The translations under genes and the position numbers were made by a program. Positions 468-63,660 of a stretch of DNA of 64,000 nucleotides are shown here, piece by piece. The notes below the pieces were generated by a model, which was given only the letters and a program-made list of their open reading frames with translations, was not told where the DNA came from and did not search any database. Position 1 is the first letter of the stretch. The number at the start of each line of letters is the position of its first letter. Origin of the DNA: Dysidea avara (lineage: Eukaryota > Porifera > Demospongiae > Dictyoceratida > Dysideidae); NCBI RefSeq assembly GCF_963678975.1, contig NC_089275.1, forward strand, positions 19,170,220-19,234,219, written 5' to 3'.

Positions 468-3400
468 CCTGTACATTCAGGTTTGTCAGGTAGAAAACAA
501 CCAGTCACAATAACTCCTATTAAACACAACAGTGCTGCAAACATACTGGGCAGGCAATAAGGGAATTTTTCCAAAAAGGAATCTGCAAATAAAAAAGGAA
601 CAGAGCAAGAAAGTTTTATAAATGATTTTTATGAGCATAACATTCCCCATACAAAAGTTACATACAATAGGTGCACTAAGTTGTTAATATGGTGAATTAT
701 TACCCTTGATACTATGTGCATACTATGTGTTAAAAATACATAGCATATCATAGCTGAATATCAATTGTACAGCATACATTATCCATGGAATTTTTACATT
801 TAAAGATATGTTTCTAAACATATACATATAGCATCATGTAAGAGAAAGTGTAGTACTGCAGAGAATACGCAGCTTATAACAGGATGTAAGCATACAACCT
901 GTTCTAAATATAATATTGCTTACTTGGAGGTAAGTTGTATTGTCCTAGAGGATCAGCTAACACACCTATGGATATATGTATAGTGTGTACCAAATGTTAC
1001 TACATTATGTATATACTATAAGGATATACTTATATAAAGGAGGACGCTAACTGTTTCTATCTGCATACACACAACTATTAAAAATGATTACAGTGGATCC
1101 TCACTTATCCGAATCTCAGTTATCTGAATACCTCGATTATCCAAATGCCAAATGTGACTGTTCTATTAGAGTATTTTGCCATCAGTGTGCATTCTATTAG
1201 AGTAAATGACTGTTCCATTAGAGTAGTTGAATGAAGCTGTATAGAAATCAATGGGCTTCAGTTATCCAAACAATTTCACTTATCTGAATACTTATAAGAA
1301 CAAAGCAGTTCGGATAACTGAGGATCCACTGTATTGCTAAAAGTTAACTAGCGAATGTGCACAACGGTTCTGTGTTGTCAATGATTATACTCTTACGTTC
1401 TCTATACATAAGAGTTTAGTAGTCCCCTAGCAATTGGTGTTAAATAGTAGTCCCCCAGCAATTGGTGTTAAATTGGAGCTGATATTTGCTGTTTTGGTAT
1501 CAATAGGTATCAGTCATTAAGCTACTCTGAAACCACTGGTGCCTAATATCATAATCATACCGTGTAACCTCTAAAATCTGATGCTCATTGGTATAAGAAA
1601 ATTGTGTCAAATTAGTAAGGTTGTTGGATTATTGAGGTAGTATTACATAGGAAATGTCCTTTTGGTATACAAAACAATGTCATATTATGGAGGTACGTAT
1701 GCATTTTGGATTACAGAGGTGTTGGGATTAGAGTTCAGCGTATAAATCCTAAATTTGGATGGAGCTGGAAATACGTAGTGTTGAAGACATGCATGTATTT
1801 CTAGCACATATTGTGTAATTTTGTCAAGTTCAGCAATTTATCACATTAATTTTGCATCAAGATATTCCAATAAAACAGTCACTACCTAACAAAATAATAA
1901 TTATAACAATAACACATATGATTAACTCAAAAGGTCAACTATACAGTACAACTAAATGCAGATATTAATAATTAAGTATATACTTGTAAAGCAGTAATCA
2001 GTATCAGGTATCTGCATTGTCGAAATGCACATAATGTATGCGGGGTATTGGCATTGGATTGAATTCCTGATATTTCACTGTATCAATGGAACACAAGTCT
2101 TAAAAAGGTCCACTGAAATGGAAAATTCACTTACCATTTTATTGAATAAATAGGTTGTTTGTATCATGCAATACACAAAAACAACTTTTAAATAATTCAA
2201 TAATGTTATTGTATTAATGTTCAGGTGCAGTACTAAGCTCTCCTTTTCAACTTCATAATGTTCCAAGATTACTTGAACGTTCTGCTGGAAACCAATAGTA
2301 GAGTTGTTTTGTAGTTGCCTAACTTAGCCTGTACTGTAGTCGGCTTCACACTATCGAAGCTCACTGGCTTCATTATGCTTCACTGCAAGAAAGTTTAGTT
2401 TGTTTATTTACAAAGTTGTTTCATTGAATATGTCAGTGTTGATTGAAGAATGCTATCAGAATCATTTAATGAAAAAAAGTACCATGAAACAAACAGTAGT
2501 ATCAATGTTAGAATAATGTTGTATGATTAACTGCAGGCTGAGATTCAGCCAGTACATCAATAGCAAAATTTAGTGCAGACTACCTCCCATACAGGTAGTG
2601 TATTTGTAGCTAGCTATCTTGCTATTATTTACTGTCTCACTATGGCTGTTGACTATCTACTTGCTAGCTATTATCAGATTTGACAAAGCTCCACTTGGTC
2701 ATAGCTACTCAACTTTCAACATCACCATACTTGACGATCTTGCTAGATACAGTACCTTACTCTTGCTTGATCTTGTTCCCACTTAAATGGTTACAATGCT
2801 ATGAACACTGACAATAAAATATGGCAAATTTTAATTTGGTCATTTTGTAAGTGTCCACCAAATCCCCAATTTTAGCTCCATGCCAAAATTCTTGCTCATA
2901 TGGTAGTACATAACAAAAAATGTACTACTGCATATTTGCTAAATAGAAACAGGGACCAATCAACAAGGTTGTTTATTCTACGCTGGAAATCAATTAATGG
3001 CAAGGATGGCCCAACTGCAGCAAAGGGTAAACATGTAATGTAGGATGTTACGTAGTTACTGAGATGATAACTAACTAGATTTTTGCTCATATCTTGATCT
3101 GGTACTGTACTAGTACAAGTAAGTTTGACTTTTAAGTTCACAATGGCATTATTTTATCATGTTTATAAGACTGAGTATATATACTATACGTAACCACATC
3201 TATCAAACCTGATGCTGCTGGTCCCAACACTAAAGCAGAGTTAAATGCAGTAGAAATTAGTGACATTCCAAAACCCTAAATGGTAAACCAGCATTTTAGG
3301 ATTAATAATACAACATGATATAGAGGGAGAGTATCAAACTGCACTGTACGCTGTAAAAATGAGCTTGTAAAGTCCTATGGCATTGTTCAAACAACTCGGT

Positions 3401-9484: not shown

Positions 9485-9700
9485 TACGGGTAGGCTTGAG
9501 CCAATTATGCTTGCCTATTACACTTTCAAGCAGTGCTCAAAAGTCCATGCTCAAAATTATGCTCTTGAGTTGGCTGTTTTATTAGAGTATATCAGCTTTT
9601 ACTAACTACTATATTAGAGTAAATAACTGTTCTATTAGAGTATCCTGATCTTATTTCCACAAAGTGTGAATAATCAGCCAAGAATTGAATTGAGCTAAAA
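9485..9700 (+). repeat. Interspersed repeat with TATGCT words, copy 1
   Basis: Shares its order of words with 54830-55080: CTCAAAATTATGCT, then two or three copies of the TTATTAGAGTA motif (9589, 9621, 9642), then GAAGTGTGAATAA-like sequence and CAACCAAGAA-like sequence. It is non-coding. The two copies are diverged, so boundaries are approximate. Confidence 0.55.
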
Positions 9701-12206: not shown

Positions 12207-12207
<1 letters not shown>

Positions 12208-12269: not shown

Positions 12270-13875
12270 TTAGTCTAGTAGACACTCACCATTATAGTAA
12301 ACAAAGCAACATACACTTTCACCATATGCTTTGTGATGTGATGATGTCTCAAAAAGGAGTGAAGTCTTTGTTTTACCATTCTGCATGTGAGGCGTAAAGT
12401 ATGATTGCATGAGGTAATTATACTGGCTCTGAAGATATGGCACATGGCTTCACTATTGTATATTCACATAAAAGTCAACTCAATAATTCTTACGCAGTTT
12501 TTAGTACTGTATAGAAGGGATCATGAGGGTTTGCACCAAAAAGACGTTTGACCAGAATTCAGGACATTATAATTGTTTGCGCTACAGCAATTTAAAAGCT
12601 ACAGTATATTACTATAGCTATAGACTATAAATATTATTGTAACAGCTACTGTTGTACAGATGTCATATGTATACTATTATTTTAAGAGTTCATAACATTG
12701 GAGCTCTCCACTATTGTTAACTGTTGATTATACAATATAATTACTGTATCATTAAGATGAACATATTATAGGACATGCAGCTATGCAATTACACTGATCA
12801 AAGCTTGTTACAATAACATTCATTGGTACATACCTAATGAGTTCTAGAGCCCGATATGCTGGAACACATGTATTTAATCCAGTGACAGTATCAGTGACAT
12901 TTCTAGAGCTGACAATAGATATACACGGAACAAAACATAAATGTTGCCGTACCTTTTAAAATAATTAGTATACAATGACATTTCAGGTGCTTAATGCTTT
13001 AAACTTGGTGAATAAACAATGCTTGCAACATTATCTGGAGACTTTTCTGACCATAATTTCACTGGAGCCTGAATAAAGGTAGAGAGCAGTGCTTCCTGTC
13101 ACGCCATAGAGGTGATCACCTATAGTGTCTACAGCATGGTGCTCTGCGATTATTTTCAATTAATGTTAGGGCCTTATAATTACTGTAGTCAGTGTTCACA
13201 TTTGTTTACATTAATGTCAAAGTAATGACAAGTGGAGGCATAGGCCCTTTTTAAGAATAAAGTAGTGATGAAATCTAAAACTGCTAAAACTTAATGTACA
13301 ATGGGTAACAACCAAATACTCTAATAGAACATTCAAACCAACTTCAAATTAACTAGGCTCATAACAGTCATCTTCTTCTGTCAGCCTGATATATATCTAG
13401 TTTGGCAGTTCATTGGAAATAACAGGGCGTGGCTACACCGGCTCTGTAAAGTTATCGTCAGCTGTGCTGAACTTCTCTTAATAGTTTACACACAAACAGC
13501 TGTTGGTATTGTGACACAACGACCTACTGTACTGTAATCCAGAGCAATACAATAAAAATAACTTCGAAGCCAACGCTGGGTAGTAGGCAGATAGTCTCAG
13601 TAGTACCATAGTCCCAAGAGTCGGGTAATTACAGTAGGTGTTTGTATACCAGTAGTCTCAAACGTTTTATTACATACATTTCTTTTACTTAAGTGAACCA
13701 TATAAACATTCACGTACCAGTTTCAGGGTGAGCTAGTAGGAGAGACAGTCAAGTGAAAATATTAGGTTACAGCTAGATTAACACGGGCGCCGTAAAATAG
13801 AATAAGACCCTTTGTGGTGGCATAGATAATTGTATGTACAGACTACTATACATCTGTGATAGTGGTAGATGTGAG

Positions 13876-15744: not shown

Positions 15745-16249
15745 GAGTATCCAACACTGTATTGCCCCTTCAAAATGCACTGCGTAATAATGTTATGCAA
15801 TAGTCATCATCACCAAAGCTGTTAACTTGCTTCAAGAGCTATAAGGGCCTTGAAGTGCTTGCAGGTCTTTGCTTTGGTATATCAATGCCTATCAACAAGT
15901 CTTTCATGGCGAAGTCATGTGTTGGAGTTTACTGAAATTATACTAAAATATTCGGATATGTTGCACAATTACAGTGGATCCTCACTAATCCGAACTCCAG
16001 TAATCCGAACGCTCGATAATCCGAACAGTGCAAATGACTGTTCTATTAGAGTATTTTGCAACAAGTGTATGTTCTATTAGAGTAATTGAACTAGGTTCTG
16101 TATTATAATCAATGGGTTCACTAATCCAAACAAATTCACTAATCTGAACAAAGTTTTGTCAATTTGAGAACAGAGCTGTTCGGATTAGTGAGGATCCACT
16201 GTATTATGCAGTGCATATTGAAGGGGCAATACAGGCGTTGGATACCCTC
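15745..16249. mobile_element. TIR element nested in the hAT-like MITE
   Basis: Inverted ends of about 45 bp: the left has GTATCCAAC, CTGTATTGCCCCTTCAA and ATGCACTGC in order, and the right end carries the complement of all three. It contains a pogo-like MITE at 15972-16201. Superfamily not assigned. Confidence 0.7.
15972..16201. mobile_element. pogo/Tigger-like MITE, copy 2
   Basis: Same ends as the element at 1091-1331 (CAGTGGATCCTCACT, inverted at the right), TA on both sides, 230 bp. Internal copies of the 19-bp word at 16035 and 16066. It is the innermost of three nested insertions, hence the youngest of them. Confidence 0.85.
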
Positions 16250-21638: not shown

Positions 21639-21649
21639 TAATTAATATA

Positions 21650-23424: not shown

Positions 23425-26400
23425 TTGCTCTCTTACCTTTCTTTAGTTTGCTTATTTAAAAAATGTTTGTTTAATGGTTACCATTACTTTTAGACTTGAG
23501 AGAATAAACACAGTTTTCTGGTAGGAAATTTAATTCTGGCCTTTTCCTGTTGAATGCTTCTAAATCATTATGATAGAATCAATTATCTCGATGACAATAT
23601 GGTTTGTCTCTTTTTGGCTTTGCTGGTGTGGAAAAGCTTAGTTAATACATGCTTTCTCCAGCTAAAGTCCATGAAGTGCAAACAATGTATCAGGTGCAGT
23701 ATTACAAAATGTTCAAAATCTAACCATAACATTGGTGCTATAGATAGAATTTGAGTTTTATACATAAAGAAGTTAATGTACGTGTATGTAGATCATCAAA
23801 TGTATAAGCTCAAAAACTAGTACTTGTCATATACTTGCAGAGTATGTCACAAAGCACTCACTATACAGTGAATAGCATATGTGTGTTCTTCATCTATGCT
23901 TATTAACTGCCTGGTATTTAGATTCTTCACACCTGTTCCACTATCATCTAGCTAACTTAGCTTATTTTCAAGAAATAATGGAATTAGTTATGCCTTATTT
24001 GGGGCATCATATGTGGTTATCCATGCAGTACAGCAGCTGCCTCTTGTACCCCCTATATACTCTGAAATGTGGACACCGTTATTTGTCTAAGGTCCCATTT
24101 GTATTAAACACACATACAATTAAACCTCTGAGATCAGGCAACTTTCCAATACAAACAGTACAGTGGGGTCTCAGAATAGTATTGTGAGAGCCTCTACATT
24201 TTCCAATAAGAACAGTATAGTGAAGTCTTAAGGTGTACAGAATAGTGCCGTGAGAGCCTCTAGCTTATTAAAATTTTTATATACATAGGGCACACACACA
24301 CATGTATGTATGACTGTGTGCTACCTCTTAATCAACATTTTTGTGTGTACAGTAAATAGATCATGACATGCCCTTTGTACTGAAGTTATGCCTGTTCTCA
24401 ATCACTTCTGTCTGTACCTTTTGTTATTTTCACTGAAATGGCTATTAAATCAAATTCTTTACGGTATGTTATTCTCTTACACCTGTATGCTGCTCCTCTT
24501 TTGGTAACCTTACAATTTGGCATGCAAGAAATTTCAATGATATAAAAGTGGTCAATGTACCAGCCATTTTGTGACCAAATTTGCAAGAAAGGTCTTCCAC
24601 ATACCAAATTTTACCATTGCAATGATTCATAACTTAATTTAGATTTGAAATAAGTTATTGATTGAAATTTTGTCAGCTGTGAGCCATAACATAGAGCATT
24701 GGAAGAAGAAAAACTTCAGAAACAAAGTTATTCATACAATTATGTGTGGGAGACACAAATCCAGCCTTTAAGAGCATCCATTGCATTATATTGCATAAAC
24801 CATAAACAAAACTAGACTTAAAAGTCTTTCCTGCTGCCACTTATTTGCTCCACTAACAATTTCTTCTATTGGCATTTATCAACAACATATATATTGGGGT
24901 CAGCAATAGCCTGCCATAGTATGTGTGTGGCGCACAGTATATTCAGTATGCAGCACAAATTTGGTTTTACAAATAATTCATAATAGTGCATGCTGAATGT
25001 ACACATGTATATTGCGTATATGTACGTATACAGCCAGTGTTCTATGAATTACAGTGGTAGGCAGGGACAGTGCTCGGTTACAACAAATCCATAACAGTCA
25101 AGCTGTACAAAAGGTGTAGTGGTGCTACAACTGTGCTGAAATTTTGATCATTGGAGCAATTTCTTGGTGATTTACTTCACAGTTTGGCTATTCTGTTCCG
25201 CAGTTTGGCTATTTTGGCATGGATCCTATCATTTACTACTTTACATGTGCTCTATTCAAGGCAGAAAGTCAAGTTGATGTTGAAAACAAAGCTTAGAGAA
25301 TTTACTTATATCTAAAACCATTTAGTTAATGAGATTACATTAATTTAACTAGTATAAATTTACTTAATCGCTCAACATAAAAGTAATAGTGAACTTGTTC
25401 ATTCCAGTTACCTCTGCCAGGCCTGCCTTATTAAGGAGGTGGTTGCATTAAACATGTTAAGGTCACTGTGTACACAAATAACAATTAGGAGACTGTTACA
25501 ATGGTCAGTTTAAATCAGGTGGCCTTATTATACAGTGATCCAGTTGGACAGGTTTCATTGTATAGTTGAATATTAGAAGTATTGCATAATCACAAATGCA
25601 GTAAAATACCTACAGTAAAGCAAACAGGCATAACACGGAATGTGATCAAAGGAATCAAATGAAACTTGGTGTATGACTTTGACTCATGATGCACTGTCTT
25701 TATGCCAATTTTTAAGAAATTTGAAAAGAGTGGGTTAATGTTTTAATTTCTTTGATAAATTAGCATGGAATGACTAAAATACTAGAATTTCCTGAGTTAA
25801 TATCCCAATTTGCCCAATGCTGACAGAGGTCCAGCAGGTGGTTTTGAGTAGTCCATAGTATGGAGAAATATTTTGTGACATAAAATAAACTATAGACCAC
25901 ATTGCAAGGTTCAGCCAAAAAAGCCCATTCTTCTGCCGGACTATTAAGGCAAATTACAAAGATAATTGAACAAATTGCATGAAAGTAAAAAAAAAGCAAC
26001 AGTCGATAATAGCAGCAGTAGAATTCTGATAAGAAAGTTACCCTATAAACCAATGTGGGGAAGGTGGCTAATTATTCATTACAATTCTACATGCACCTGA
26101 CTGTTTTATTAGAGATAGCTGAATGCTCTATTAGAGTATTTCAATCTTTTACTATTACAATTATTATTTTGAGAAGTGAAAGAGTTAAATAGTCCTTTCT
26201 CCATTGGTCTTCTGCCCATTCTTCAGCATTCAGTCTCTATGAAGCAAGTTCGTTCATAACATCTGTAGCCGCAATCATTAAAACATTGAGATGATGAAAT
26301 AATGGTGAAAACTCATAATAATGACCAAATTTAGGCAGTGGATCTGAAATACAATAGCTAAGTGGCCTAAAGAGTCCAGAAAACAGTGGGAGGGAGGCAA

Positions 26401-33446: not shown

Positions 33447-33535
33447 TGACTGTTCTATTAGAGTACCTATGATTGCTTCCTAGTGAATGCATGTATTATT
33501 GATATTTTATTACATGTGACAGTTCTAGTAGAGTA
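33447..33535 (+). repeat. Two copies of the 19-bp TGACTG word
   Basis: An exact TGACTGTTCTATTAGAGTA at 33447 and a variant TGACAGTTCTAGTAGAGTA at 33517, 70 bases apart. No inverted ends are visible around them. Confidence 0.8.
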
Positions 33536-38990: not shown

Positions 38991-39177
38991 CCGTAATTTG
39001 CTTTATTTTTGTGTAAAAAAATCATGATATAAGTTTTGTGTAAAAATATTTTCGCATGATTCATGTGAATGACTGCTCTATAAGAGTAGTTCGATCTTGT
39101 GTAAATTTTCGTATAAGAAATTTCGTACAAGTTTTGCATATGAAAATTATTTTGCAATAGAAAAAAGCAAATTACGG
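38991..39177. mobile_element. MITE with CCGTAATTTGC ends
   Basis: CCGTAATTTGCTTT at the left mirrored by AAGCAAATTACGG at the right, flanked by TA on each side. 187 bp, no coding sequence. The interior carries TGACTGCTCTATAAGAGTA at 39070, a copy of the dispersed word, although the element has no other similarity to the pogo-like MITEs. Confidence 0.75.
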
Positions 39178-43691: not shown

Positions 43692-43710
43692 TGACTGCTT
43701 TATTAGAATA
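43692..43710 (+). repeat. Single copy of the 19-bp TGACTG word
   Basis: TGACTGCTTTATTAGAATA, one or two changes from consensus, standing alone. Confidence 0.7.
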
Positions 43711-49000: not shown

Positions 49001-52000
49001 CCACAATGAGAAACACTCATCAAATCCAATTGTACCAAATGAATACACACCGTACAATACTACAGTACCTAATGTCGCCTTATTCCTAAATGAATATGAA
49101 CATACAATGAGAGGTGTTGAATGTCAGATTGGTATGTGACCTTACTTTACTAAACTAAGAAAGACTTGCCATGAAGAGTGTACTTGTTCTTTGATTCTTT
49201 TCAGTTTTTGTATAAAAGTTGTTGTGGATGTCAGTGGTACGATAATAGTATCTTCTGAGTGATGATTTGATATTTCGACTTCAGAAGTAGAATTTTCAAC
49301 CTTTTCTTTATCAAGTAATCTCTTATAAGAAACAGTATTGACTGATAATGTGAGAGGGGAATTGTCTCTGCTCTCTGACTGTAGTTCTGCTACTTGCTGG
49401 AGGTCTGAATTATTCTCAAATGAGCAGTCATGTGTCTCCGCTTTAATATTATCCATTAGCACTAACTCTTCAGTAGTGCTGTTGTTGATTTCATCCAGGT
49501 CTTCAGTCATACTATCATCACTGCTACAAATTGGACAGCAAATATCATAACATGAATTATGGCAACATGCATTGATGCATAAACAAGGGTGAAAATTAGG
49601 ACTTTTGCCACATTAAAATGGCCGAACTCCTATGACCATGTACTGGCCGAATCATGCCATATGATTTTGTTACTTGTTCAGGCTGGTTATACTGAATTTA
49701 GAGTTTGTTGTGTAATAATTCTGTAACTCCGTTGCAGCTGTTATGTAAACAAAAGCAACATAACGAGTATACTATTATGTATAAGGTAGTGTAATTTAGT
49801 GTTGCACCGATATCCAAATTAGCCGATTATTCCGATAACCGATATTAAGCAACAGAATTAGCCGATACCGATAACCGATCCGATGTACACCAATAACACT
49901 AACACTCATCCTCATCATTATTAAATGGCTCATATTAGTGACATAACCATTGATATACAGCTCATTCTAGGCTAAAATGTAAAGTTAGATGTATACCACA
50001 AGTAAAAGTTACTCATGGTAAACAGGTTTTAAGTACATTTTACTACTGCTATATAGAGTTGAGACAAGTGGCTGGTACTACATAGAAACCTAAAAACCTC
50101 AATTTATTGTTGGGCATGGCCTAAACCCTGACAGTTTATTATGGGCATGGCTTGTAGTCACCGCTAAACCATTCACACATAACTTAATTAAAATGCCAAA
50201 TAACTTATGTCTAGCCTCCCCCACATCATTATACTACACAGCACAGTGGAGATTAACATCGGCCTTGATTTAATCAAAACCGATTAATCGGCTAGTAACC
50301 AATATCGGCCCGATACCGATTATTGAACCGATTATCGGTGCAACACTAGTGTAATTATAGGTATAGTTCTGAGTGTTGAAGGTTGGTAACCAGGTGCCAA
50401 CAAAGATGTCTTACACTCCGCAGAACTACATTACATTATAGTTTACTTATGATGCACTTTCTTCTTGTGTGATTTACACTATTAATTTTAAAGTATTGCA
50501 CATACATTTATGTGCTCATGCCCACCATGCCTCATCCATCATCTACACCAGTCTCCATTCTACTGTGTGTATTAGGGCTGAAATGATCATGGATATTTAC
50601 TATTTGAGTATTCTATAGAGTTAATAATCAAGTACTCATGAATACTAGCTACTTGTCATACTCATGTGACATGTTTTATACTGACCACAAGCAGTTTGTA
50701 ACCTTTTCAAGTGATGTCGATGGTATACATGTACACGCTGTACTACAGTACCGATATAATGCATGCAAATGTTCTCCTAACAAAGTGCAATAAATTCGAC
50801 AACTTAAATTTTGACAGCCTTCAACGTCACTTCTTGATGACAAGCACATCACATGATCTGAATCATGTGATCTTTATGAGTACTTGAGTACTAATTTTAG
50901 TTTTCGAGTACCAATATCCTTAATGACTACCCATGCATTTGCAGTATTTGTTTTAGCCCTAGTGTGTATAACGCATAACAATGTCTTGACAACTTTGAGC
51001 CTTTAATTCCAAGAATGGTTTAACTGACTTGCTTCAACAAGAAACATTTCGTGCAATCATTAGTCTGGAAAGGATCCATCCATCCCAGAAGAGAACACCT
51101 ATGGGCATGTCCAGTTGAGTACGTGCACATCTTACTATGAAATGCTTGTAGCAAGCCAACATTCTATTCAGTGGTTGGCTACAGCCATAAATAGTTTAAT
51201 TAATGATTAGCATCTCAACCATCAATGCTTCAAATAAATAACAACACAGGTACGTAGGAGGATTCAATGATTACATAACTATAAATAGCTACATGAGATA
51301 CCTCACACCTCACAATGAATCTAGTCTAGCTACTGTTGTTTGTTAGTACCTCAAACCATTGTGTAATGAATCAGTGGCTTTAAAAAATCATTGATGCAGT
51401 AAGGAAAAAGTTTGACATAGATGGAATGTGGTCTACACTCTATTAAGCATCACTGCCATAAAAGCATTGAAGGAAAGATCACATCTGCACCTAAAGCTAA
51501 TTCAATCTCTTAAATTCTTCAGTTGACCACACCACCCAATTCCTAACAATTATAATGTGTTACATAGTCACATAAAAATTATGTTAAATGTTGGAGTAGA
51601 AGGTTCAAATACAAAACAATACATTACGGCTAGGTTTATGCCAATGGTATAATTTAAAGCACAATTATAACTGTTACAAAAAAAAACATTAAGCCTCATG
51701 ACAGCTTAACAGCCAAGATGATTTTCAAACTTCTACAATGTGTATGCCACAAAGATAGACTGCAATTCATATCCAAAAACACATAATAATTATTATAGAA
51801 ATACGTAAGATCATGATATTCTAATAAGATCATGATATTCTAATATTACACTATAGTAATATAATGTATGATTGTTAATGGCTATAGCTACTTAACTGTG
51901 TGTATGATTTGGATGTACAGGCTACGCCTCTATCCAAAATTTACAATTACAATTAATATAACAGTCACTTACTCTTATACGGCAGTTAGGAAATGCTGAT

Positions 52001-55000
52001 ACACTCTAGTAAAACAGTCAGTTCTTGAGCATAATTGTGATTTTGAGAGCATGATAGGTTTGCAATTTGAGCATTGTTCAAAGGTTTCTTCAAAGCATGA
52101 TTGGCTTAAGTGTAATTATGGTCGTAGATTCAGCTCAAACCATTGCTTCTGATCAGTGCTTTTTTTTGCTGTGGTCTCAACTAGCATTCAAAATCCCCAC
52201 AATTTTATTGAACACTTGCTTGTCCAGATTTTATAAACACCACTATTAGTAGGGAACTCAAATACTGTATAAAGAATGGCACCAGTCACACGGTGCCATT
52301 CCTGTAATGAGTGAATGTGATCTTCCAACAATCAAATAGCTACTTAAAAGTGAAGTGGTCCTTATTCTGCTACTTACTTGTATATAACAATAAAGCATGT
52401 AGTAGCATAGACATACAGACAAGTACTCAGGATTGGAATCTAAATCATCCAGTTTTTTGTGCCGCTGGGATCATTGTTACTGGAAGTAGCAATATCATCA
52501 AATTTGTCACACAGAAGGTTAATTCTACTCTTGTAACTACGTACTTCCTAAAACATTTATAATTGAGTAGTCGTGCAATATAAGCTTAGTTTCTTCAATA
52601 TGGTGCCTATGCTTTGGCCAGTCACTTCGAGAAACACACTCACAAACCAGGCTTGGCAGCTAACTAACCAGCCCTTTTCACAAGCAAGGCTTACCAACAA
52701 CTGAAATAAGTACTTTCATTCTTCAAAAATAGAGTATTTTTATTGTCTCGCCTTTTTCAAAGGGGTAACAATGATCCGGCAAACGTATTTGTATTGGAGT
52801 TATTGGGCTCATGTGAGATGATCCCAATCCCATAGTTTGTATATCTATGGTTGTAGGGATTGCATTTAAACTGTGCTGAAACAACCCCTTCAATCCTTAC
52901 TTTAATTAGCCAATATAAATAGCAACTTGGCTAAAGTATGGCCAAACAATTATGTTATCTGCACTCACAATTGTATACAGTATTACAATATCTTGTTCTT
53001 ACATTTTATTCTCAGGTTTATCTGGTAGGAAACAACCAACAATGACTACTCCAAGTACACAGATTAATGCACTAAATACACTGGGAAGACAGAATGGAAA
53101 TTTCTCCAGGAAAGAATCTGTAGTGATTGCAACATTTGAGCTGGTTAACAAACACACTAGTACAGTAAGTTGCTAGATATACAGTACCCATAACTAATTT
53201 AAGTGTAGGTTAGAGAGCTAGCACGAGGATCTTTGTGGATTTCAAATACTGAGGTTTTTAAAATCCACGAAGACCCGAGGGCATGATCTCTAACCGACTT
53301 AGAAAATGTATGCATTTTATATGGGCATATAGCTTGGTGTGGGATTGGGTCGTACTGAAATCGTCACACAATGCTAAAATAATCATGGAAGGTAGAGCGT
53401 ACGTGCTTTTATCGAAGTGTTGAAAAAATCGAAGCTTGCCCACTTCCTTTCACAAGTTAGACTTGGATCTGGCACAGCTGGGAAGCAGCAGTAATCGATA
53501 ATGTCAAGCTGGGTTAGCAGTAGCCAGAGCCTATGGTATCACAACAGTGTAACGAATACATATGTCAAGGAAGCAGCTTGTGTGGATTTAAGCGATGGGA
53601 ATGAGCTGTCATGATTTGTGACTTGAGGGACGCCACAGTAGCACGAAGAACAGGCATGGCTTCGAATATGGACCACACCCATATTACATGTAGTGCAAAA
53701 TATTAAATATTTCTACAAGGAAGCTTACCCATTTTAGGTCTTAGTAAAGTCCATCCATAGTTTAACAGAAGATAAAATCCACCCTTACCCCTTTATAGTT
53801 GTTTTTTTCTTAGTTGTTCCCCTTTTGCCGTAGTTGTATTTTATTCGTTGTGGTTGTATAGTTTGTTGTGTAGATTCTAATTGTAGCATTTGTTGCCATG
53901 TGCATTTTTCCATTGTGATTCACCTTAAAACACTCTAGAAACAGATGGGCACTAAACAGAATTTTCATGATATTTCTGGACTTCTCTGTTCATTGTAACA
54001 AATGTGCATATTGTACCTCCCATAATCGAATTCTTTTAAGCATGCCTATAACATGAATAGAGTGGTTAACCACATATTGGCCTGGGAGACTGGTCGCCCT
54101 CTTTAGGCTATCAGCCTGAATGTGCTTGGAGGGAACATTGCAAATCATTGATCAATAGTGAGATTTGTGATGCTTGAGGTCTTTTCTGCTAGCAGGTTTC
54201 TAACCATTTTAAGAATCTGCTAGCAGGTCTCTTAGTGGATTTTAAAGACCTCATTATCCTCCAAAGATCTAAGCATATTATGCATATCAGTTTCTAAATG
54301 GTATTAGTATCAGCACATTAAAAAATGTAGCATTGAGATGAGATGTAAATATGTGTTACCATTACTTAAGTTAGTTTGCAACTTTAACAAAATTAATATG
54401 CAATAACATAGACCATGCTATAATCTATAGTGTAATTCTAGATTCAATACATGCTATACATGCATACATATATATGTATGCTTCTGCTACTCAAATATAA
54501 CACAAAGGACATTCAGTTAGGCTCCTTTTGAATCACCATGCACCCATAATGTTACTGTAGTGATGCAGTTCATATTTGGTACATGAGATCAGTTTGTCAG
54601 TTCAATGTTACAAAGTGGTACTTCGATAAATGGGCAAGAATCACTTTTCTGCCTGTTATAAAGCATTTTGAACATTCAGAAATTTGCAGTGACATAATAA
54701 GTCACATGCCTATGTAAAATACAAAACAATTTTTTGGCATTTAGAAAGATTTACTCCATTATGTTGTGTTACTACATAGGTGGAGTATTCATTGATTTGC
54801 CACAGTTCTAGTGTTGATAATGATACTTAATTTGTGGCTAGGCACAAGCCTATTATGCTCAAAATTTACCTACTATGCTTTTAAGTAGTGCTTAGAAATC
54901 ACGCCATTATGCTCAAAATTATGCTTTCAAAATAAGGTTATGCTCGAGAAATAACTATTTTATTAAAGCACATTAGTGTTTCCTGACTGCTGTATTAGAG

Positions 55001-58000
55001 TATGTGACTGCCCTATTAGAGTATCTCGATCTTACTTTACGAAGTGTGAATAACCAACCAAGAAACAGTTAAGTAAGTTATTATACATGAAATGCAGTAA
55101 TAATGCGTATCAGTTATCGTTTGCTTTCTTTCAGATGCATGGCATTGTGCATTTTAATTAAATTTTCAAAATATTGTCCCTATTATGCTAGCATCATGCT
55201 TGATGCTTTTGGTTACCTATTATGCTTTAAATTATGTTAGCATAAATCGGCCGGGGCCTATTTGTGACCTATATAATATAGCATCTAAAAATGGCAAATG
55301 TTTTACTGGGCCTGCAAAAACACGGCATGTGGGCACAATCTACACACTGTCATATCTCAGTATTGTAAGAAGAATACAGTTGCATTGAATTCTGTAACTT
55401 TAGTTATAAAGCCAACCAAATTCTTAGTAAATGCTGAAACAGTTATAGCCATATCCAAATACTATGAAAAGTTATAAGCCATAAAATTTTGGAAAAGTAG
55501 GTAAATATTATGTGCCCACATGACCTGTTTTTGCAGGCTCAGTCAGATTCAAATTCTATATGCTATATTTATCGTGCTTTGTGCACTTATATGATTTGAT
55601 GACAAGCAACATACTGGAGTTCAAGAGTAGGAACTGTGTGACTTCAAAATAGATCATATAGTATGGTCCTTTATATACAACAAAATTATACTCCAAATAC
55701 CGTACTTACTCGATTTGTGCACCAGGGTACTATTACTTATTTGCCCAAAGTAAGGATAAAATCCTTCAAAAATAGCTATCGCCAAACTGCAGTATTATTT
55801 GAGGGTGTGCTACTGCTATTTGGAACCTGCTATCCTATAACATTATATTATGTTACCACGTACTTGTTCTATACAAGGCTTTCTTTCACCCAAGTCATTG
55901 TAGCACAACCACATTATGCCTTGTGTTACACGGTCAGTTTACTAACAAATATCCAGAGTTTCAATTATGTGACAGCCATTAAAGTTTACCAGGACAGTAG
56001 GTATGAGAGCCCTAGTAATTAGTATTTACAAAGTATAGTGAGGTATGTACTATTTGATGGTGTGGTACAATAAAATTTTTTTTAAAACAAGGATAAAACC
56101 TTTTGAATAGTACCGCACTGCAGTACTGTTCAAGGGTGTGGCACAAATCGAGTAACTACAGTTATTATGCTGTACATACTTACTTGGTGGCAAGTTATAT
56201 TGGTCAAGTGGATCGGCTAATACTCCTAATAATAGAAATATATCAAGACAATAGCATCATAACAATGTTATAGCATACAAGCCTACCTGATATTGCAGGC
56301 CCAAATACAGTACTAGCTCCCCAAGTACTTGAAAGTAGTGACATCCCTAGTCCCTAATAATGCACATGTATTGAACAGCCATATACCATATTTGATACAT
56401 GACTTAAAAATATATATATTATATACAGCTGAAAAGCCATCTGTCTGTCTGTCTGTCCATAAGACAGTTTTTAATGCCTTCCTATCTGTTAAAGGTTCAG
56501 CTAAGTTGAAAGGCACCCGCCTTATAAACACAAGGTCTGATTCTAAGTAGTGACATTTTTTAAGTGCAATCTTTTTTCTATAATTACTATACGTATATAT
56601 GAACTTTTCGTACACCATGCATGGTGCTGATATCTGATGCTTATGACTTTTAGTTAGTGTGGACATGGTCCTGCATGTAGGGCAGGTACCAACACTGTCT
56701 TACATAAGCACTTTAAACAACTCTGTCTAACATACATACTTTAAAATTTATTGCACAAGAACAAAAAATTGGTAAAACTATGTCACAGTTGCATTACTTG
56801 TACATGCATTTGGCAAGATTCTAATGCATGCTGTGGTTTATTTATAGATAAACAGTATAAAAATTAATAACGGTGAGACTCAAATTTGGTGAATATGGTT
56901 AAATTCACCAATCTGCCAAATTTCAGTTACTTACCAACAAGCATTGTTCTTACTCAATATACTATAAATGTGCCAATACTTTTTGTTTCAATCAGATCGA
57001 GTACGTATACGAACAATAGATCTGCAATTTTGGCCAATGCTTGAATCATTAATGCTGACAAAGTAAAAACTTCTTTTCCCCATCAAATTGAAAAGAAAGT
57101 TTCCTATTGTATGGTACCTTATTAAATGGTTAATACAATACACTCTATTCCATTCAGTTACACATGATACAATTACTGAAAGTAACACTAAAAATGTTAC
57201 CTGATTGACATTGTCTGAATGCTCACACAAAAGAGCTTTACCGTTACCAACAACACCTGCAGCATAACAAGATGGTGAATAAAGAAGTGCATGTGTCCAC
57301 ACAAAACAAATAATGATTAAACCCTAAAGTAGTAACGTTATACATTATGTCTCAAAAGTTTTAGTAAGTACTCTACAGTACATCCAAATGTGATTAAGTA
57401 CTTTAAAATATTCTGGCCACACTGGCATTCTAGGTTTTATGCATAGAGGGTTTGCATGTGAAAAGTCTTGTGGCATGAATTATAAAAATGCTTAACAACT
57501 GTTGCTAGTCTGACATTTGTGAGGTTTACTTTTCAATGGCACGCAATGGGCAAATGCACTTATTTTGTCAACACGCTTTACCAAATAAGAGAATCTCTGT
57601 CAAAAGCTAGGATAAGGTTAGAAACAAACATTAAATATTAGCACTAAGTTGGTCAAGCGTGATATCAATTTTTCGTCGATTAGTCGTGAACCCTAACACT
57701 TTGTACAATTTTGACGATGGCTATCCTAGTTTATACAAGTGACTAACCTAGCGAACGTGTTCCATTCTACACTGAACCATTGAGACTGGCTGTAGCCTTC
57801 ACTCGCGTACCTCGCAAATGTCTGACAAGCAACGGTTGTTAAGCATTTTACGAAAATACGTCATAACGCATCACGCGTGCAATCCCTCTATTATGTCTAG
57901 TGCTGCCACGATATAGAAAAACTCTATATCATAAATCACTAAGATTTATATCATGATATGAACATATATCACGATATAGAAAAACTAACTGTAACATTTG

Positions 58001-61000
58001 CAAGACAAACATATACATACTTTCCATTATAATTTAAGTTGTTTAAGTTGGATGTATACCACAAGCAAGAGCTACTCTTGTTTATCAGGTTTTAAATGCA
58101 TTTTGCTACTGCTTTACAGTTGAGACAAGTGGCTGGCACTACATAAAAACCTTAAAACCTCCCAGTTTACTTTTTGGCTTGTTTACCACACTGCACCATC
58201 AACACATAACTTAATTCAATGCCAAATACCATAAGTCTGGCCTCCCCAACATCATTACACTAAGCAGTGCCACTATTGTGCAACCATCGATATAACTGAT
58301 TGGCTATATCATAATCATATCACCACCTTGTTAAATCGATACTATCAATGTATCGATATACCGTGGCAACACTAATTATGTCTTTAGATTATAAGTTAGT
58401 TTTTAACTTTAGACAAGTTTGAGGAAAAATTAGAAATTTTAAGTTCGATTAGGGATCATAGAAAAAACATGTACGGAAACAAGGGAGGTCACCTACACCT
58501 GCAGATATACTAGTGAACATTTAATCCCTAATCCACTCTACACCCAAGACCAAGACTGAATTAGGGATTAAATGTTCACTAGTATATCTGCAGGTGTAGG
58601 TGACCTCCCTTGTTTCCTACTTTTTTTTCTGTGATCCCTAATCGAACTTAAAATTTCTAATTTTTCCTCAAACTTGCTTGTTTACTTTTTTTGCAAATTA
58701 TTATGACTGGTGAACCCACGCATACCGCATCAAAAAAGGATGGAATGTTTTCATCTGAACGCATCCTCCAGCTATCAAAAACTGTTTTGAAAAATGCAGT
58801 GGCCATTACGCTTCACTTTCAGCTATGTTTAGTCCATTACACAGCACTACAGACGAATAACAGTAGAAGAAGTACCTCTGCAACAATCCAGTCACCACGA
58901 CAATTTGCACGTCCCAACTATCAATTACTGCCTCGAAAGTGCAACCATAGTTATCTGTGGTGCAGCGGCCATCACGCTTCACTTTCAGCTATATTCAGCC
59001 TGTTACAAAGCATCACAAACGAAGAGCACTGTTAGAATCATCTCAGCAATCAATCCATTCGCCACAGAAAATACGTACGATTTCCATTTACAAACGTACT
59101 GTATAGGGAAGCCATGCAGCACTCTACTGCGAATTGACATGTTGGGCTGTCAGCAAAAAGAAATGGGACACAAAGAAGGACAAAGGTAAGTCCATGATAC
59201 GTGCACTGTACATACTGCGATATGCCAAAAGGCACGTCTCGGGAAAAAGCAACGTTGAACAGTGAAAAAAATCAAGCCCGTACCCTTAGCCGTTATCGAG
59301 TTACACTTGCCTGAAGGAATCAGGTAAGCACACAGAAAGTTAGTCAGTAGAAAATTACATTGAATATATATTTTTTGTAAATTTCATAACAATTTATTGA
59401 AAGCCTTTAGGATCGTACTTAAGGCACTTTTGGGCTTTTGGTTATACCTAACCAATTCTGCCAAGGTGTCAGGTGGAGTTGTGAAGCTGGTTTTGGGGTG
59501 AATTTTTTGGCTAGGAAATTCAAATCTCCATGATCCCTAAACTGTATGATAGAAATAAATTTTACAGTATATACATATATGTATATGTACTCACAAAACA
59601 GAGTACAATTAGCCATTAACAATTTTGTACCATTGGACAATCCAAGAAGAAATCTGAAGATGACGGCCACATAAAAGTTGAAACTAAATCCAAAGAAAAA
59701 CGATGAGAGTGCCATACATATTCCACTGTACATCAAGATGGTCTTCTTGCTTTGTTTGTCTGCTAACCAACCCCAGAAGTAGCTGACCATAGAAAAAGCA
59801 TGAAAGAATAATTAATTGTATTTTAAAGAATCAGACACGATACATGAAAAGTACTACACATCTTTAAGAAGCACATGAGGTATGTTCATACATGCATAAA
59901 AAAAAATTATAATTGAATTTCAAAAATGCATTTGTGACCCAGTCTAGGAAAACCGGTTTTATCACCTTTATATTTAAAGTATAGAAATACCTATTTTGAG
60001 TATTCAAGGTGTTGTAGCTTGCCAATGGATGAAGCTACCTGTACCAAATTTTCACATGTTTTACACCGATTTCTTACCTTCCAGAGTATCCACTGTACAT
60101 GTACAAGTAGACAATAGTTAAGGTTCCTGCTATTTTAGATAGTGTTCAACTTAATGTTGTATGGGGCATTCAGGTCTCAAAACCGGCTAACATTAAAGGA
60201 CATTTACAGCACAAGTCTTTATTCAGTGCTACGGAGCTGTACAATCACATACAGCCATCCCCGGGATGGCCAGAATTCCATTAGGGCCATAGCCACTCAT
60301 ATCAGATTGCTACTGTGCTTGGGAAAAGCAGCCAGCAAAAGCAAGCCACTCAAGTCTAGCTGATTTTGATTGTAAATTTGATAGTTTATTCATGGAGGTT
60401 TGTGTTCTTGGTGAAAAAAATCAAATCTGTAGTCATGGGTGATAAGACGAGTTTTCCCAGATCCAGTCAAATTAATGTACATTTCTTTTGAAAATCAACA
60501 AAGCTTTGGTATTATAGTGGACCCTAAGTTATCCAAACCTTATAGTCTCAAGCAATGTTAAAAGCCTGCAACTACAGAGGTCATACGTACGTACTACACC
60601 TGTATTATGGTATAGACAGTTAATGGGATTCTGTACATCAAACCTAAGAGTTCAAACTGAATGTGCAGCTACTGTAGACTGTTGGTTATCCATCCCCTGT
60701 TTATCTGAAATTAAAATGACTGTTCTATTAGAGTAGTTGAACACTGGTGTATGTTTTATTAAGTATTTTTGTACATACTGTAAATGTATGGGTTTCAGTT
60801 TATTCATCTGTGCTCAAAATACTTTAATAGAACAATTTTGGATGAACAATTAAGGGTCAGTCTACTGTACCTGCACATAAAATTAAACTGAACTCTGAAT
60901 CCCATCCCAATAGCTAATTGTCTATACCATTTCAACATAATAACAATATTTATGATCTCTGTAGTTACAGCTTGAGCTACGGGCTATGAAAAAAGTAATT

Positions 61001-63660
61001 ACATAATAACATGTACATACACTACCTTGATAGTACGTGAGTTTTTCGGAAACCTGTTTCTCTGGTATAAACAAATGTACATAATATCATTTAGCCATTA
61101 CTATCCTTTAATTTCCAATGCAGCTCAACAGGCGTATATCAGCTTGTTAGCGTCACAGTTAAATATGACTCATTATTAACACAAATAATGGACTAATACT
61201 GTATAATGGTATAGTTATAGTACTGTGCTTATCTTGTTACCTTCCGCAGAATCTTCCAAAATACATAGATGAAGCTAAAAATCCAGCATATCTTCCTACA
61301 GTAACAGTAGTTATAAAACATTACCATAGACAATATCTGAAACCATACACATTCATTGTACATGCATATTTACATAGGCTATGCTTTGCATGGGCTGTAT
61401 TTTTGACTTCTAGTGTGACAGACTGTATTATATTGTTATTGCATATGTTGTAGATTATGTATAGATACCCATATTGTGACGTACGTACAATGTGTTTCAA
61501 TAAGAGTTGTTAGTAGTTTGTTGCCAAACCACACGTGACTATTATCCACATGTACAGCTTTAATCACTGACGATACATGGTGTCAGAAGTGGGATTCTGT
61601 GATGGCGAGTGTTCCTTTACAACCTCCAGCACCATTCTGTTTTAGCAAAACAGATGAGTGACCAAAACGGAAGAGGAGATTTGAACAATATCAAATGGCA
61701 TCCAGGCTGTCAGAGAAAAGTGATGAATGTCAAGCCAGTACACTTCTTTACTGCCTAGGCACTGATGCCTATGATATCCTAACAACCACTTGAATCTCAG
61801 ATGAGGATAGAAAAAGTATAGCAAGGTTCTAATGAAGTTTGATTAAAGTGAAACACAATTATGTGATATTCGAAAGGGCTCATTTCAATAGAAGGAATCA
61901 GCAACCTGGCAAATCGACTGAAGATTATATTACAACTCTACACCAGTTAGCACAAGGGTGTGAGTATGGTGGAATGACGGATGAACTGATCCGTGATCAG
62001 CTAGTCATGGGCATAAGAGATGAATCGCTGTCAGAGCATTTACAAATAGAGTCAAACATTACTTTGTAACATGCTAAGAAGTTTATAAGACAGAGAGAGG
62101 CAATTCAACAACAACAAAGTACGTATACTGAAGGGAAACAATGACATGCAAACTGAAACTCTTGAACCAATGTATGTGAACAAAGCAAAACAATACAAAC
62201 ATGAGGAGAAATATATCATAGTATCGCAGTCTTTATATTGGTACAAACATGCTAGTTACTTGAAGTAATTTGTCAGTCACAGTGTATAATGAAAATGCTA
62301 TATAAATATCAACTAAATACTATACATCTCAACTTGTGATTATATATAGTTATATATATTTACAACATGTATTTTGCTTATGTCAACCAGGGGCAGAGAA
62401 ATAGGGTGACAACTATACCTTTACACTTTAAAGAGTGTACTCCCTCACTTTTGTTTATATTTTGCTCAGAAGTATAGAAACTGTTATAATTATTCTACTG
62501 ATTAAGCCAACTTATTTTGCCTTGATTTAGTACTACAGGTTACCCAGCAATGGAATACTACCTGAATCAGTATTGGAAGCCCAAGAAATAGAGATACTCT
62601 AATAGAGCAGTCACCAGACTGCTGTTTTGCTATGTAATTTATCTAAATCTGCCTGCAAGTATCTGTAATAATACATGATTATGTGCATAGGTCTATTTTA
62701 AAGACTACTTATGTAGTATAATAATGATGGTCATGGACTTTATCCACAATGATGTCATGAGCACAAGATGGCCACATTATTTGGGGGACTATTGTACAGG
62801 TACCTATGGAGAAAAATTGTTTTGATTGATCATATTTCAACTGGGGAGGAGATACCGAACTCTAAACAAAAGGTGTGGTTTTGAGACAATACAATAATGA
62901 TTAATTTTGTATCACATGCTGGATAATTTTCAAGGAGACAACACTTGGTTATTGTTGCCCATTACATTGGATACTGGTCAGTAACTTACTTCACAAGTGA
63001 AATATATTTGATCAAAAAACATTTCTCAATAGGTTCCAGTATCCAAATAATGTGGCCATCTTGTACTCATGACATCATTGTGGATAAAGTTCATTGTCGT
63101 AAGCATACTGACCTACACATGTGCCACTGAAAATGTTCTCAGATTTAATGTCTCAAAACATTCAAATTTCATATTTTTATTTCTGTAGGGGTATACCCCT
63201 TAGTACAGAGGTATTGTCATGCTTTGCATACTGCACACTAAAGTACAGTTAATTGATAGCCTGGCTTTGCTCCCCCCTCTTTCCCTCCTACACTCACATG
63301 CACGCATGTATGTACATACACACACGCGCGTGCACACACACATACACAGTTCTCTACCCTGTATCAACAAGACATAAAGTGACAATAAAGATCTTAGAAG
63401 TTTTTGTATTATTACACCATCACAATAGGAATCAACCCATGTAAGAAAAAACCGCTGCAACTGTTTGCATAATAACTATTCGATCCACACATCACCTCAA
63501 CCCTTTACTAGTTGCATACATACATACTACTGTGTTTAAGTGTGTTATTATATACCCTTTTTCTTTAAGATACAGTCAACAACTAGGTATATTTAGACAA
63601 ATAAAACAAAATTAATCACAACCCACCAATATTCCTATGCTCAACATCGGGAAGTAAAAA
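46051..63660 (-). CDS. MFS-B: major facilitator transporter, ZIFL-like (13 exons, 5' end missing)
   Basis: Minus-strand exons in coding order: 63627-63660, 61241-61295, 59631-59782, 57201-57256, 56287-56353, 56184-56225, 53003-53117, 49146-49523, 48979-49085, 47654-47745, 46575-46648, 46367-46528, 46051-46228. They total 1512 nt with no shift, 503 residues and a TGA stop. Landmarks: FLLPDVEHRNIG, the MFS motif GWLADKQSKK, GPAIS, CFLPDKP closing helix 6, a hydrophilic linker of about 126 residues encoded by exon 8, then helices 7-12 including FSLWSATRISLGGLGF and the DKLGAVNGLAVTVTSLFR segment typical of ZIFL proteins. It should be a 12-helix membrane carrier; substrate unknown. All visible donors and acceptors are GT-AG. 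The helix-1 exon was not found. Confidence 0.9.
48411..48866. mobile_element. TIR element with TGTGACT ends, copy 1
   Basis: The left end TGTGACTTAGTCTGGGAAAA is mirrored imperfectly at the right (TTTTTGCAGATCCAGTCACA). It is collinear internally with 59932-60470, for instance TTTTCACACGTTTTACGCCA. It lies in MFS-B intron 9. Confidence 0.7.
49146..49523 (-). CDS. MFS-B exon 8: cytosolic linker between helices 6 and 7
   Basis: The longest exon of MFS-B (378 nt), listed separately because its content is unusual. It encodes a hydrophilic stretch rich in Ser, Thr, Asp and Glu (for instance SDDSMTEDLDEINNSTTEE), with no membrane helix and no recognised domain. In MFS proteins the loop between helices 6 and 7 faces the cytosol and often carries regulatory sites. 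Exon phases at both ends (2 and 2) match the neighbouring exons. Confidence 0.8.
49797..50348. mobile_element. hAT-like MITE with exact 8-bp duplication (GTGTAATT)
   Basis: Ends TAGTGTTGCACCGAT and ATCGGTGCAACACTA, flanked by GTGTAATT at 49789-49796 and 50349-50356. Subterminal repeats of CCGATA and its complement fill both ends. 552 bp, no coding sequence. Its core is shared with 57898-58374. Located in MFS-B intron 7. Confidence 0.9.
50573..50961. mobile_element. hAT-like MITE with exact 8-bp duplication (GTGTGTAT)
   Basis: Ends TAGGGCTGAAA and TTTTAGCCCTA, flanked by GTGTGTAT at 50565-50572 and 50962-50969. Subterminal words such as GAGTACTTGAGTACT recur. 389 bp, no coding sequence, same intron as the previous element. 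Confidence 0.9.
50970..53002 (-). other. Rest of MFS-B intron 7
   Basis: AT-rich intron. A short tandem duplication (GATCATGATATTCTAATAA) sits at 51809-51845, and a hairpin-like GGCACCAGTCACACGGTGCC around 52278. Otherwise nothing recognised. Confidence 0.5.
54830..55080 (+). repeat. Interspersed repeat with TATGCT words, copy 2
   Basis: Same order of words as 9485-9700, with two good copies of the 19-bp word at 54984 and 55005 (21 bases apart), followed by TCTCGATCTTA and GAAGTGTGAATAACCAACCA. Similar words continue to about 55255. Confidence 0.55.
55305..55545. mobile_element. TIR element with GGGCCTGCAAAAAC ends, copy 3
   Basis: ACTGGGCCTGCAAAAAC, then GGCATGTGGGCACAA, at the left; TTATGTGCCCACATG, then GTTTTTGCAGGCTCAGT, at the right. 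241 bp, similar to 21052-21290. Confidence 0.75.
57898..58374. mobile_element. hAT-like MITE with exact 8-bp duplication (ATTATGTC)
   Basis: Ends TAGTGCTGCCACGATATA and TATACCGTGGCAACACTA, flanked by ATTATGTC at 57890-57897 and 58375-58382. The centre matches 49797-50348 (for example GAGACAAGTGGCTGG and CACATAACTTAATT), but the subterminal repeats are ATATCATGATAT-type instead of CCGATA. Located in MFS-B intron 3. Confidence 0.9.
58414..58676. repeat. Near-perfect 118-bp-arm hairpin
   Basis: The left arm beginning CAAGTTTGAGGAAAAATTAG is mirrored by a right arm ending TTTTTCCTCAAACTTG. Both arms include GATTAGGGATCA or its complement and ACCTACACCTGCAGATATAC or its complement. The near identity of the arms implies recent formation or active arm correction. 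Confidence 0.9.
58414..59539 (+). repeat. Hairpin-bearing interspersed repeat, best copy
   Basis: Starts with a near-perfect hairpin (58414-58676, arms about 118 bp around a loop of roughly 25 bp). It continues with ATGACTGGTGAACCC, two diverged tandem units sharing TTACGCTTCACTTTCAGCTA-like sequence (58806 and 58972), and the body shared with four other copies, ending CATGATCCCTA. Open frames inside show no known domain. Confidence 0.7.
59932..60470. mobile_element. TIR element with TGTGAC ends, copy 2
   Basis: TTGTGACCCAGTCTAGGAAA at the left and TTTCCCAGATCCAGTCAA at the right. Collinear with 48411-48866, with an extra internal block (about 60215-60400) also related to sequence near 8900-9000. 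In MFS-B intron 2. Confidence 0.65.
60516..60867. mobile_element. Diverged pogo-like MITE, copy 3
   Basis: TAGTGGACCCTAAGTTATCC at the left, with TAAGGGTCAGTCTACTG at the right and TA on both sides. It carries an exact TGACTGTTCTATTAGAGTA at 60717 and an inverted variant at 60820-60836. Older than the copies at 1091 and 15972. Confidence 0.6.
61414..62130 (+). mobile_element. LTR plus gag fragment of a Ty3/gypsy-type element
   Basis: A 164-bp stretch from TGTGACAGACTG to GACGATACA (61414-61577) looks like an LTR, followed at once by TGGTGTCAGAAGTGGGAT, a primer-binding-site-like sequence. A gag-like stretch begins near 61602 and is broken by several stops; it is related to the gag piece at 37014-37205. 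No pol region follows. It lies antisense in MFS-B intron 1. Confidence 0.7.
62595..62613 (-). repeat. Inverted single copy of the 19-bp TGACTG word
   Basis: On the minus strand it reads TGACTGCTCTATTAGAGTA, an exact match to the consensus, with no recognised element around it. Confidence 0.8.
62732..63096. mobile_element. TIR element with about 60-bp ends
   Basis: GACTTTATCCACAATGATGT, CATGAGCACAAGATGGCCAC and ATTATTTGG at the left recur, inverted and nearly unchanged, at 63035-63096. 365 bp, non-coding, superfamily unknown. Confidence 0.75.

Follow-up and report, generated by a model that had tools for sequence, protein, structure and literature searches.

Very short interspersed words of high copy number, often paired, are known from bacteria as REPs, which move as REPIN units. 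Both REPs and REPINs are linked to REP-associated tyrosine transposases (PMC2817692, PMC3116915). In Caenorhabditis, the m1m2 sites of the MITEs CERP2 and CELE2 are bound by the host protein HIM-17 and have been dispersed by the thousands; part of them have been co-opted as germline promoters, where conservation is higher in the motifs than around them (PMC9757741). Sites for CTCF, with a 33/34-mer motif, have been dispersed by mammalian retrotransposons (PMC3368268). In placozoans, promoter hubs carry motif-bearing Mutator TIRs that are tied to looping, and CTCF is reported as absent in non-bilaterian animals (PMC12221973).

Here we describe a 19-bp word of Dysidea avara, followed up from a 64-kb window (i.e. 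the whole stretch of DNA that was analysed). It resembles the HIM-17 sites in being a short, paired motif with preferred spacings, located inside MITEs and present in many copies. In the HIM-17 system, two related MITEs bear the motifs in their inverted repeats and some 4,000 pairs lie outside accessible regions, whereas the D. avara word, known from sequence alone, lies in the interior of carriers with at least five end types as well as in a long repeat, in more than 100,000 copies (PMC9757741). Like the CTCF sites, it is a long motif dispersed by repeats, of a sequence-specific protein that is putative here; the CTCF sites belong to a known protein and were dispersed by retrotransposons, in contrast to the mostly DNA-transposon-like carriers found here (PMC3368268). 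With the placozoan hubs it has in common that an early-branching animal carries a motif specific to its lineage in a DNA transposon, but there one superfamily bears the motif in its TIR while in D. avara several kinds of carriers bear it internally (PMC12221973). Finally, it shares with the REPs and REPINs their shortness, copy number and frequent pairing, with the difference that it moves within larger eukaryotic elements (PMC2817692, PMC3116915). In some known cases a protein's binding site has been spread by one or two related transposon families. What differs here is one long motif common to carriers with several unrelated end types, in more than 100,000 copies.

The 19-bp word and its copy number

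A first-pass annotation had reported more than 20 recurrences of the word in the window, beyond chance expectation. This is borne out: allowing up to 3 mismatches, the window has 23 matches, whereas 100 shuffles average 0.06 and never exceed 1. The positions it gave are correct within a few bases (9574 becomes 9571 and 13318 becomes 13317); the copies at 1186, 31746 and 60820 have 4 mismatches each. We add copies at 1863 (minus), 29882 (plus) and 52002 (minus), and weaker ones at 51970 (minus, 4 mismatches) and 54952 (plus, 5 mismatches). The 21-bp pairs 1186/1207, 9603/9624, 31746/31767 and 54984/55005 are real, as is the second word TCTCGATCTTA, which follows the first within one unit of about 28 bp. 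The contexts that had been named, i.e. CAGTGGATCCTC-ended elements, CCGTAATTTGC-ended elements and a TATGCT element around 54848-55260, are likewise present. The features of the window are the following (coordinates, strand, description; a dot stands for a feature without strand).

1091..1331,.: carrier, a 241-bp TIR element with ends CAGTGGATCCTC and TA on both sides
1155..1225, +: three words (1155, 1186, 1207), spacing 31 and 21 bp, in a MITE interior
1863..1881, -: word with 3 mismatches, no relative in the sample examined
9571..9642, +: three words, spacing 32 and 21 bp, in a relic of the TATGCT element
13317..13335, -: word with 1 mismatch; beyond it, 61% similarity to L011:4683 across 114 columns
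15972..16201,.: carrier, a 230-bp TIR element with ends CAGTGGATCCTC and TA on both sides
16035..16084, +: two words, spacing 31 bp, seen in 20 of 20 copies retrieved with a flank devoid of the word
26098..26138, +: two words, spacing 22 bp, then TTTCAATCT; similarity to sampled loci ends little beyond the words
29882..29900, +: word with 3 mismatches, a match to the 19-mer
31746..31785, +: two degraded words, spacing 21 bp
33038..33056, +: word with 1 mismatch; 26 bp on its left common to L025:7663
33447..33535, +: two words at a distance of 70 bp, with flanks in the same group as those of L068
38991..39177,.: carrier, a 187-bp TIR element with ends CCGTAATTTGC and TA on both sides
39070..39088, +: single word with a GTTCGATCT tail, in the interior of the 38991-39177 element
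43692..43710, +: word with 2 mismatches, no relative in the sample
51970..52020, -: two words (52002, 51970), in a TATGCT relic
54848..55260 (approximate limits),.: carrier, the TATGCT element, with a three-word cluster in register in 20 of 20 copies
54952..55033, +: three words and tail TCTCGATCT, spacing 32 and 21 bp, the central cluster of the TATGCT element
60717..60735, +: exact word in a degraded relative of the CAGTRGA elements
60820..60838, -: degraded word with 4 mismatches, in the same relic as 60717 on the opposite strand
62595..62613, -: exact word; flank resembles the L014:4248 repeat

The genome-wide count at two mismatches, which the first-pass annotation had proposed, gave 126,402 copies of the 19-mer in the 550,814,596 bases (550.8 Mb) of the genome, against 14 for the reversed word. 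They are distributed over the strands as 63,457 forward and 62,945 reverse (6 and 8 for the reversed pattern), for a density of about one copy per 4.4 kb. A sample of twenty 10-kb stretches, taken at round coordinates of contigs C1-C4 irrespective of the word, contained 53 copies at up to 3 mismatches, spread over 15 of the 20 stretches.

No match to the 19-mer was obtained among the viral contigs. The 19-mer has three exact matches in the genome contigs of GTDB, two of them inside long open frames; such bacterial matches are, by our estimate, about what chance yields in 257 billion bases. In the portions of the literature accessible to the search, analogues but no description of the motif were found: two 10-mers appeared in none of the texts among the matches listed, and the 12-mer TCTATTAGAGTA appeared only in a paper on Heracleum microsatellite markers.

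Some other features of the window were recorded. A short tandem repeat, open in several frames, runs for about 1.26 kb at 21640-22900. A 552-bp TIR element without the word lies at 49797-50348, with ends TAGTGTTGCACCGATA and target duplication GTGTAATT. Protein-kinase and Kelch-repeat genes occur as interleaved duplicates (13801-14892 and 27246-28241; 17868-18878 and 41651-42673); the word at 13317, close to one of these duplicated genes, does not align to the duplicate.

A unit of about 28 bp that begins with the word

The 19-mer makes up the left side of a longer unit, TGACTGYTCTATTAGAGTATMTYRATCT, about 28 bp in length, which counts 52,701 copies genome-wide at up to 2 mismatches (reversed control, 0). 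We built a profile of this unit seeded by the ten-mer TATTAGAGTA alone, from 48 occurrences in the window and the sample, families not being collapsed. The left boundary of the unit is sharp, at the T of TGACTG, and on the right the unit fades into a graded tail, TMTYRATCT. The core, CTCTA-T-TAGAG, is a near-palindromic inverted repeat, and the arms on its two sides are unequal (TGACTG left, TMTYRATCT right). In the same 48 occurrences, with families not collapsed, the base preferences are specific to positions and do not follow an even decay: position 6 is shared by C (0.46) and T (0.48) next to a nearly invariant T at position 7 (0.96), and position 21 is T at 0.94 between positions at 0.44 (position 20) and 0.42 (position 22). 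The same shape of tolerance, although weaker, is obtained with one consensus for each of 27 flank families defined by single linkage, with a heterogeneity of the tail at p 0.016; this tail test is weak, and one of the families lumps 76 of the 129 clusters. A scoring matrix derived for the unit detects 95 sites at or above 12 bits in 264 kb, 29 of them in the window, against 4 with the reversed matrix.

Scans with Rfam (at gathering score) and ARAGORN found neither a structured RNA nor a tRNA; they covered the window and ten of the 20 sampled 10-kb loci, and further all 20 of these loci with L052 and L084. The idea of an snRNA promoter, with the word upstream of U6, gave a U6 family search that was empty here and in its controls alike.

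Arrangement of the words

The 129 word clusters analyzed (127 loci; two of the 129, in L008 and L032, are one locus fetched twice) comprise 58 single, 56 double, 10 triple and 5 quadruple clusters. The arrays are thus short, none of the 129 exceeding four words, at variance with the long tandem arrays of satellites and minisatellites. In the window and the sample, 35 of 38 neighbours at most 100 bp apart share their strand. Distances between neighbours, which it had been suggested to tabulate, group at 17, 20-23, 25-28 and 31-33 bp, with 17, 21 and 32 bp the most frequent. A helical phasing of the words was rejected, as these spacings form no single 10.5-bp series.

Exact words separated by a linker of 0 to 8 bases make 9,369 pairs genome-wide. 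Counted by hand in the first 100 pairs listed, all from contig C1, the linkers measure 2 bases in 39 pairs, 4 in 11, 6 in 26 and 8 in 19, with odd lengths in 5. Even lengths (2, 4, 6, 8) thus make up 95 of these first 100 listed pairs, which perhaps stem from a few families. Several of the 8-base linkers are the tail itself, and hence represent whole units placed head to tail, at 27-28 bp. In one family, one to four units follow each other in tandem with a 17-bp period.

Carriers with unrelated ends

The word is carried by MITEs flanked by TA duplications (two end types), by MITEs flanked by 8-bp duplications (three end types) and by one young long repeat. Such ends suggest names like pogo-like and hAT-like for the MITEs. 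Beyond the window, the following carriers were identified.

L001 1240-1664: ends TAGGGACCCGCC, target duplication GCTATTAA
L042 64-378: ends CAGGGGCGGTGGA (two mismatches between the ends), target duplication GGGAGTAA
L009 3754-3944: ends CAGGGCCGCCCA, target duplication TTAGTGGC
L052/L084/L094/L095: young repeat longer than 1 kb, in which a tRNA-like segment precedes the word

All defined carriers hold the word in their interior; in three elements of the window it lies at least 63 bp inside the ends, away from the terminal position of a transposase site. In the TAGGGACCCGCC elements the word groups are central, divergently oriented and near-palindromic. Elements with different ends have in common a left core that ends in CTTGCTACACTGCTTCTCTGAATACTG, ahead of the word.

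The long repeat is young: 19 of 40 scored matches are identical over 161 bp, the query locus included. A reading of it as a SINE, prompted by its tRNA-like segment and box motifs, was dropped, eight copies being 97-100% identical to the majority over about 1.1 kb; this agreement extends to the left end of the fetched stretches.

The flanks of the 129 clusters fall into 15 left and 18 right groups of at least two loci, and 34 clusters belong to none. A de novo scan of the window and the sample found it in 5 of 29 TIR elements and not in the other 24, and we estimate its enrichment in MITEs at about twofold over background at most. L014 2245-2708 does not carry the word though its ends are very similar to those of the carrier L014 5226-5560. 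Long tandem arrays of a short repeat were also observed at L014:2-1150, L015:4284-6296 and L020:2-1880; those of L014 and L015 run into the word and a conserved right-hand body, forming a high-copy composite repeat.

The words travel and decay with their carriers

Two carrier families were sampled by parts free of the word. For the TATGCT element the right part was used and the best 20 of 39 other matches were taken; for the MITE at 15972-16201 a word-free flank was used and 20 of 39 other matches were taken, the best ten and ten lower ones. In the TATGCT family the three-word cluster is in register in 20 of 20 copies, one of which has a deletion in the last word. In the 15972-16201 family all 20 copies are 231-235 bp long, bounded by TA, inserted in unrelated flanks and provided with two words 31-32 bp apart. 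Since the words are in register in both flank-sampled carriers, they are part of the masters and travel with the carrier. For the right half (114 bp) of the 15972-16201 element, 8 of 40 scored matches are identical, itself included.

Agreement of the TATGCT copies with their majority, in blocks of ten columns, is 0.92-0.99 for blocks inside the words; flanking blocks lie mostly at 0.82-1.00. In this family there is no constraint at the level of copies: words and flanks decay alike after insertion.

None of the 20 and 20 copies is empty; one element (1091-1331) has gained 21 bp, and one family varies from one to four units. The gain is the third word of 1155..1225, an extra 21-bp unit relative to four sister elements (window 15972, L018, L039 and L060), and in sequence it resembles the first word more than the adjacent second one.

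It had been suggested that the word could be a very short mobile or seeded unit. Where we looked, this found no support: besides the lack of an empty carrier copy, no target duplication stands out around 42 tailed copies, the best of 288 combinations (8 lengths, 4 left offsets and 9 right offsets) giving an unconvincing z of 3.46. The refuting case named in the first-pass annotation, that all stand-alone copies derive from one longer family, fails because the copies are spread over many flank families whose ends are unrelated. Certain stand-alone copies in the window do look like relics of some repeat, 33447/33517 grouping with L068 and 62595 with the L014:4248 repeat. In L037, a stand-alone copy lies about 50 bp from a repeated element, and the first 156 bases of the query around it match only themselves among the 40 candidates scored.

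Retention of the words between subfamilies

Three subfamilies with related ends were compared: TATGCT (20 copies, selected by flank), near-palindromic (7 copies) and a third form, A1B10 (3 copies). The loci of the last two had been picked by the exact word in 6 of 7 and 3 of 3 cases, which leaves word-less subfamilies invisible. Between TATGCT and the near-palindromic form the arms are 83% and 81% identical and the word cluster 85% over 53 bp, with the DNA between them unaligned. TATGCT and the third form likewise align by their ends and cluster only (word cluster 81% over 85 bp). Near-palindromic and A1B10 elements are in contrast 73% identical over 192 columns, through and past the words, so that replacement of the DNA around the words is not general.

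In six flank families, for which most loci were selected by the exact word, the last word is 0.95-1.00 identical and the flanks 0.48-0.97; in the youngest of the six, word and flanks are equal. Among unselected homologous pairs, a first pass of 118 alignments gave 0.728 for the word against 0.688 for the flank, 76 of 118 favouring the word, a weak difference polluted by minisatellite register. The second pass gave 0.777 against 0.735, 22 of 34 pairs favouring the word, a small excess.

A word common to D. avara and a related animal

One of the three exact matches of the 19-mer in GTDB contigs is in JACOMT010000094.1, filed under a Rhodobacteraceae bin. This contig looks bacterial up to about base 4,250 and eukaryotic thereafter (L029:4250-5370). 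The eukaryotic part matches best at a single place in the D. avara genome, G000:C12:25852053-25853328, in two blocks, at 77% over query 394-981 and at 85-86% over query 1-103; the remaining matches of the query are one 70-bp repeat at its end. From these similarities, the Rhodobacteraceae bin apparently includes animal DNA, from a relative of D. avara.

Between the blocks lies an apparent intron, in which GCTAAN-word-GTT is common to both animals (26 of 28 bases identical) while the rest hardly aligns. The D. avara intron has a second word 31 bp further; the relative has one word only. Of the nine bases flanking the word, 8 match, a level reached by 3 of the 990 pairs that can be formed from 45 word clusters of the window and the sample; none of these 45 clusters matches the flank of the relative in more than five of the nine bases. 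The intron word is probably ancestral and would have been kept while the intron changed, for this one locus, which was found through the word.

Discussion

Our preferred reading is that the unit is a putative binding site for a host protein, and that many transposon lineages have kept and spread this site; we give it about an even chance. In this view the unit of about 28 bp would be recognized by a host protein that binds DNA sequence-specifically. Many non-autonomous lineages with unrelated ends would carry one to four such sites in their interior, and would have retained them through the replacement of much of the DNA that separates sites from element ends. Each new insertion would seed sites, for more than 120,000 in all, most of which would decay neutrally, some being retained by the host. 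A captured site would account for the position-specific tolerance, the geometry of the arrays, the unrelated carriers, the replacement of DNA around some words and the orthologous site. That one of the three subfamily pairs aligns beyond the words lowers the odds; the like decay of words and flanks in the TATGCT family, the small excess in unselected homologous pairs and the presence of the word in only 5 of 29 de novo TIR elements also speak against this reading. Binding of a protein might benefit the transposon, e.g. if it made the chromatin of germ or stem cells more accessible. The host might make use of some of the sites. Of the three ideas of the first-pass annotation, a protein-binding site spread by transposons fits best, with carriers that have unrelated ends; its binding part stays putative. 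More specifically, and tentatively, the word could be the site of a lineage-specific genome-organising or germline protein, captured by several transposon superfamilies.

Part of the evidence can be read otherwise. Non-autonomous transposons could swap a tandem-prone 28-mer by template switching or recombination without any function of this module, which we consider rather unlikely. The left core ending in CTTGCTACACTGCTTCTCTGAATACTG that is common to elements with different ends, the tandem growth from one to four copies at 17 bp, the 21-bp gain in 1091-1331, the whole units head to tail at 27-28 bp and the equal decay of word and flank in the TATGCT family would all be in keeping with such swapping. 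But a neutral module should drag neighbouring bases along and lose its positions evenly, whereas the left edge is sharp and the tolerance position-specific; moreover, the words stayed while the surrounding DNA was replaced in two of the three subfamily pairs, and a relative has the orthologous word. Exchange of modules may nevertheless account for the common cores and the tandem growth, and may be the route of spread between lineages, which is compatible with a binding site. The word could also be a signal internal to the transposons, e.g. a site for a transposase or another element-encoded protein common to the carriers, as the central, divergent and near-palindromic word groups of the TAGGGACCCGCC elements might suggest. 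We regard this as improbable: the carriers differ in their ends and duplication lengths, hence presumably in their transposase, the word is absent from L014 2245-2708 and from 24 of the 29 de novo TIR elements, and it is present in a long repeat with a tRNA-like segment.

An independent micro-element of about 28 bp, mobile or seeded and inserting into other repeats, would explain the sharp left edge, the many unrelated contexts and the surroundings of the word in L037, whose 156 bp are without a second match among the 40 scored. It would also be expected to leave target duplications and empty carriers, and the best z of 3.46 among 288 combinations, together with the presence of the words in every copy read of the two sampled carriers (20 each), makes it very improbable. 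That all copies are relics of one longer transposon family we consider hardly credible, even though several stand-alone copies have flanks in common with some repeat, given the 15 left and 18 right flank groups, the 34 of 129 clusters in none and the unrelated ends of the carriers.

If a protein binds the unit, D. avara would offer an unusually large natural experiment on the acquisition of binding sites by transposons and on their retention by the host. The 28-mer is a ready bait for this putative protein, whose interest would be greatest in a non-bilaterian host, CTCF being reported as absent there (PMC12221973). If the site is indeed that of a lineage-specific protein, transposons of several superfamilies would jointly have delivered one regulatory network, and this in an early-branching animal.
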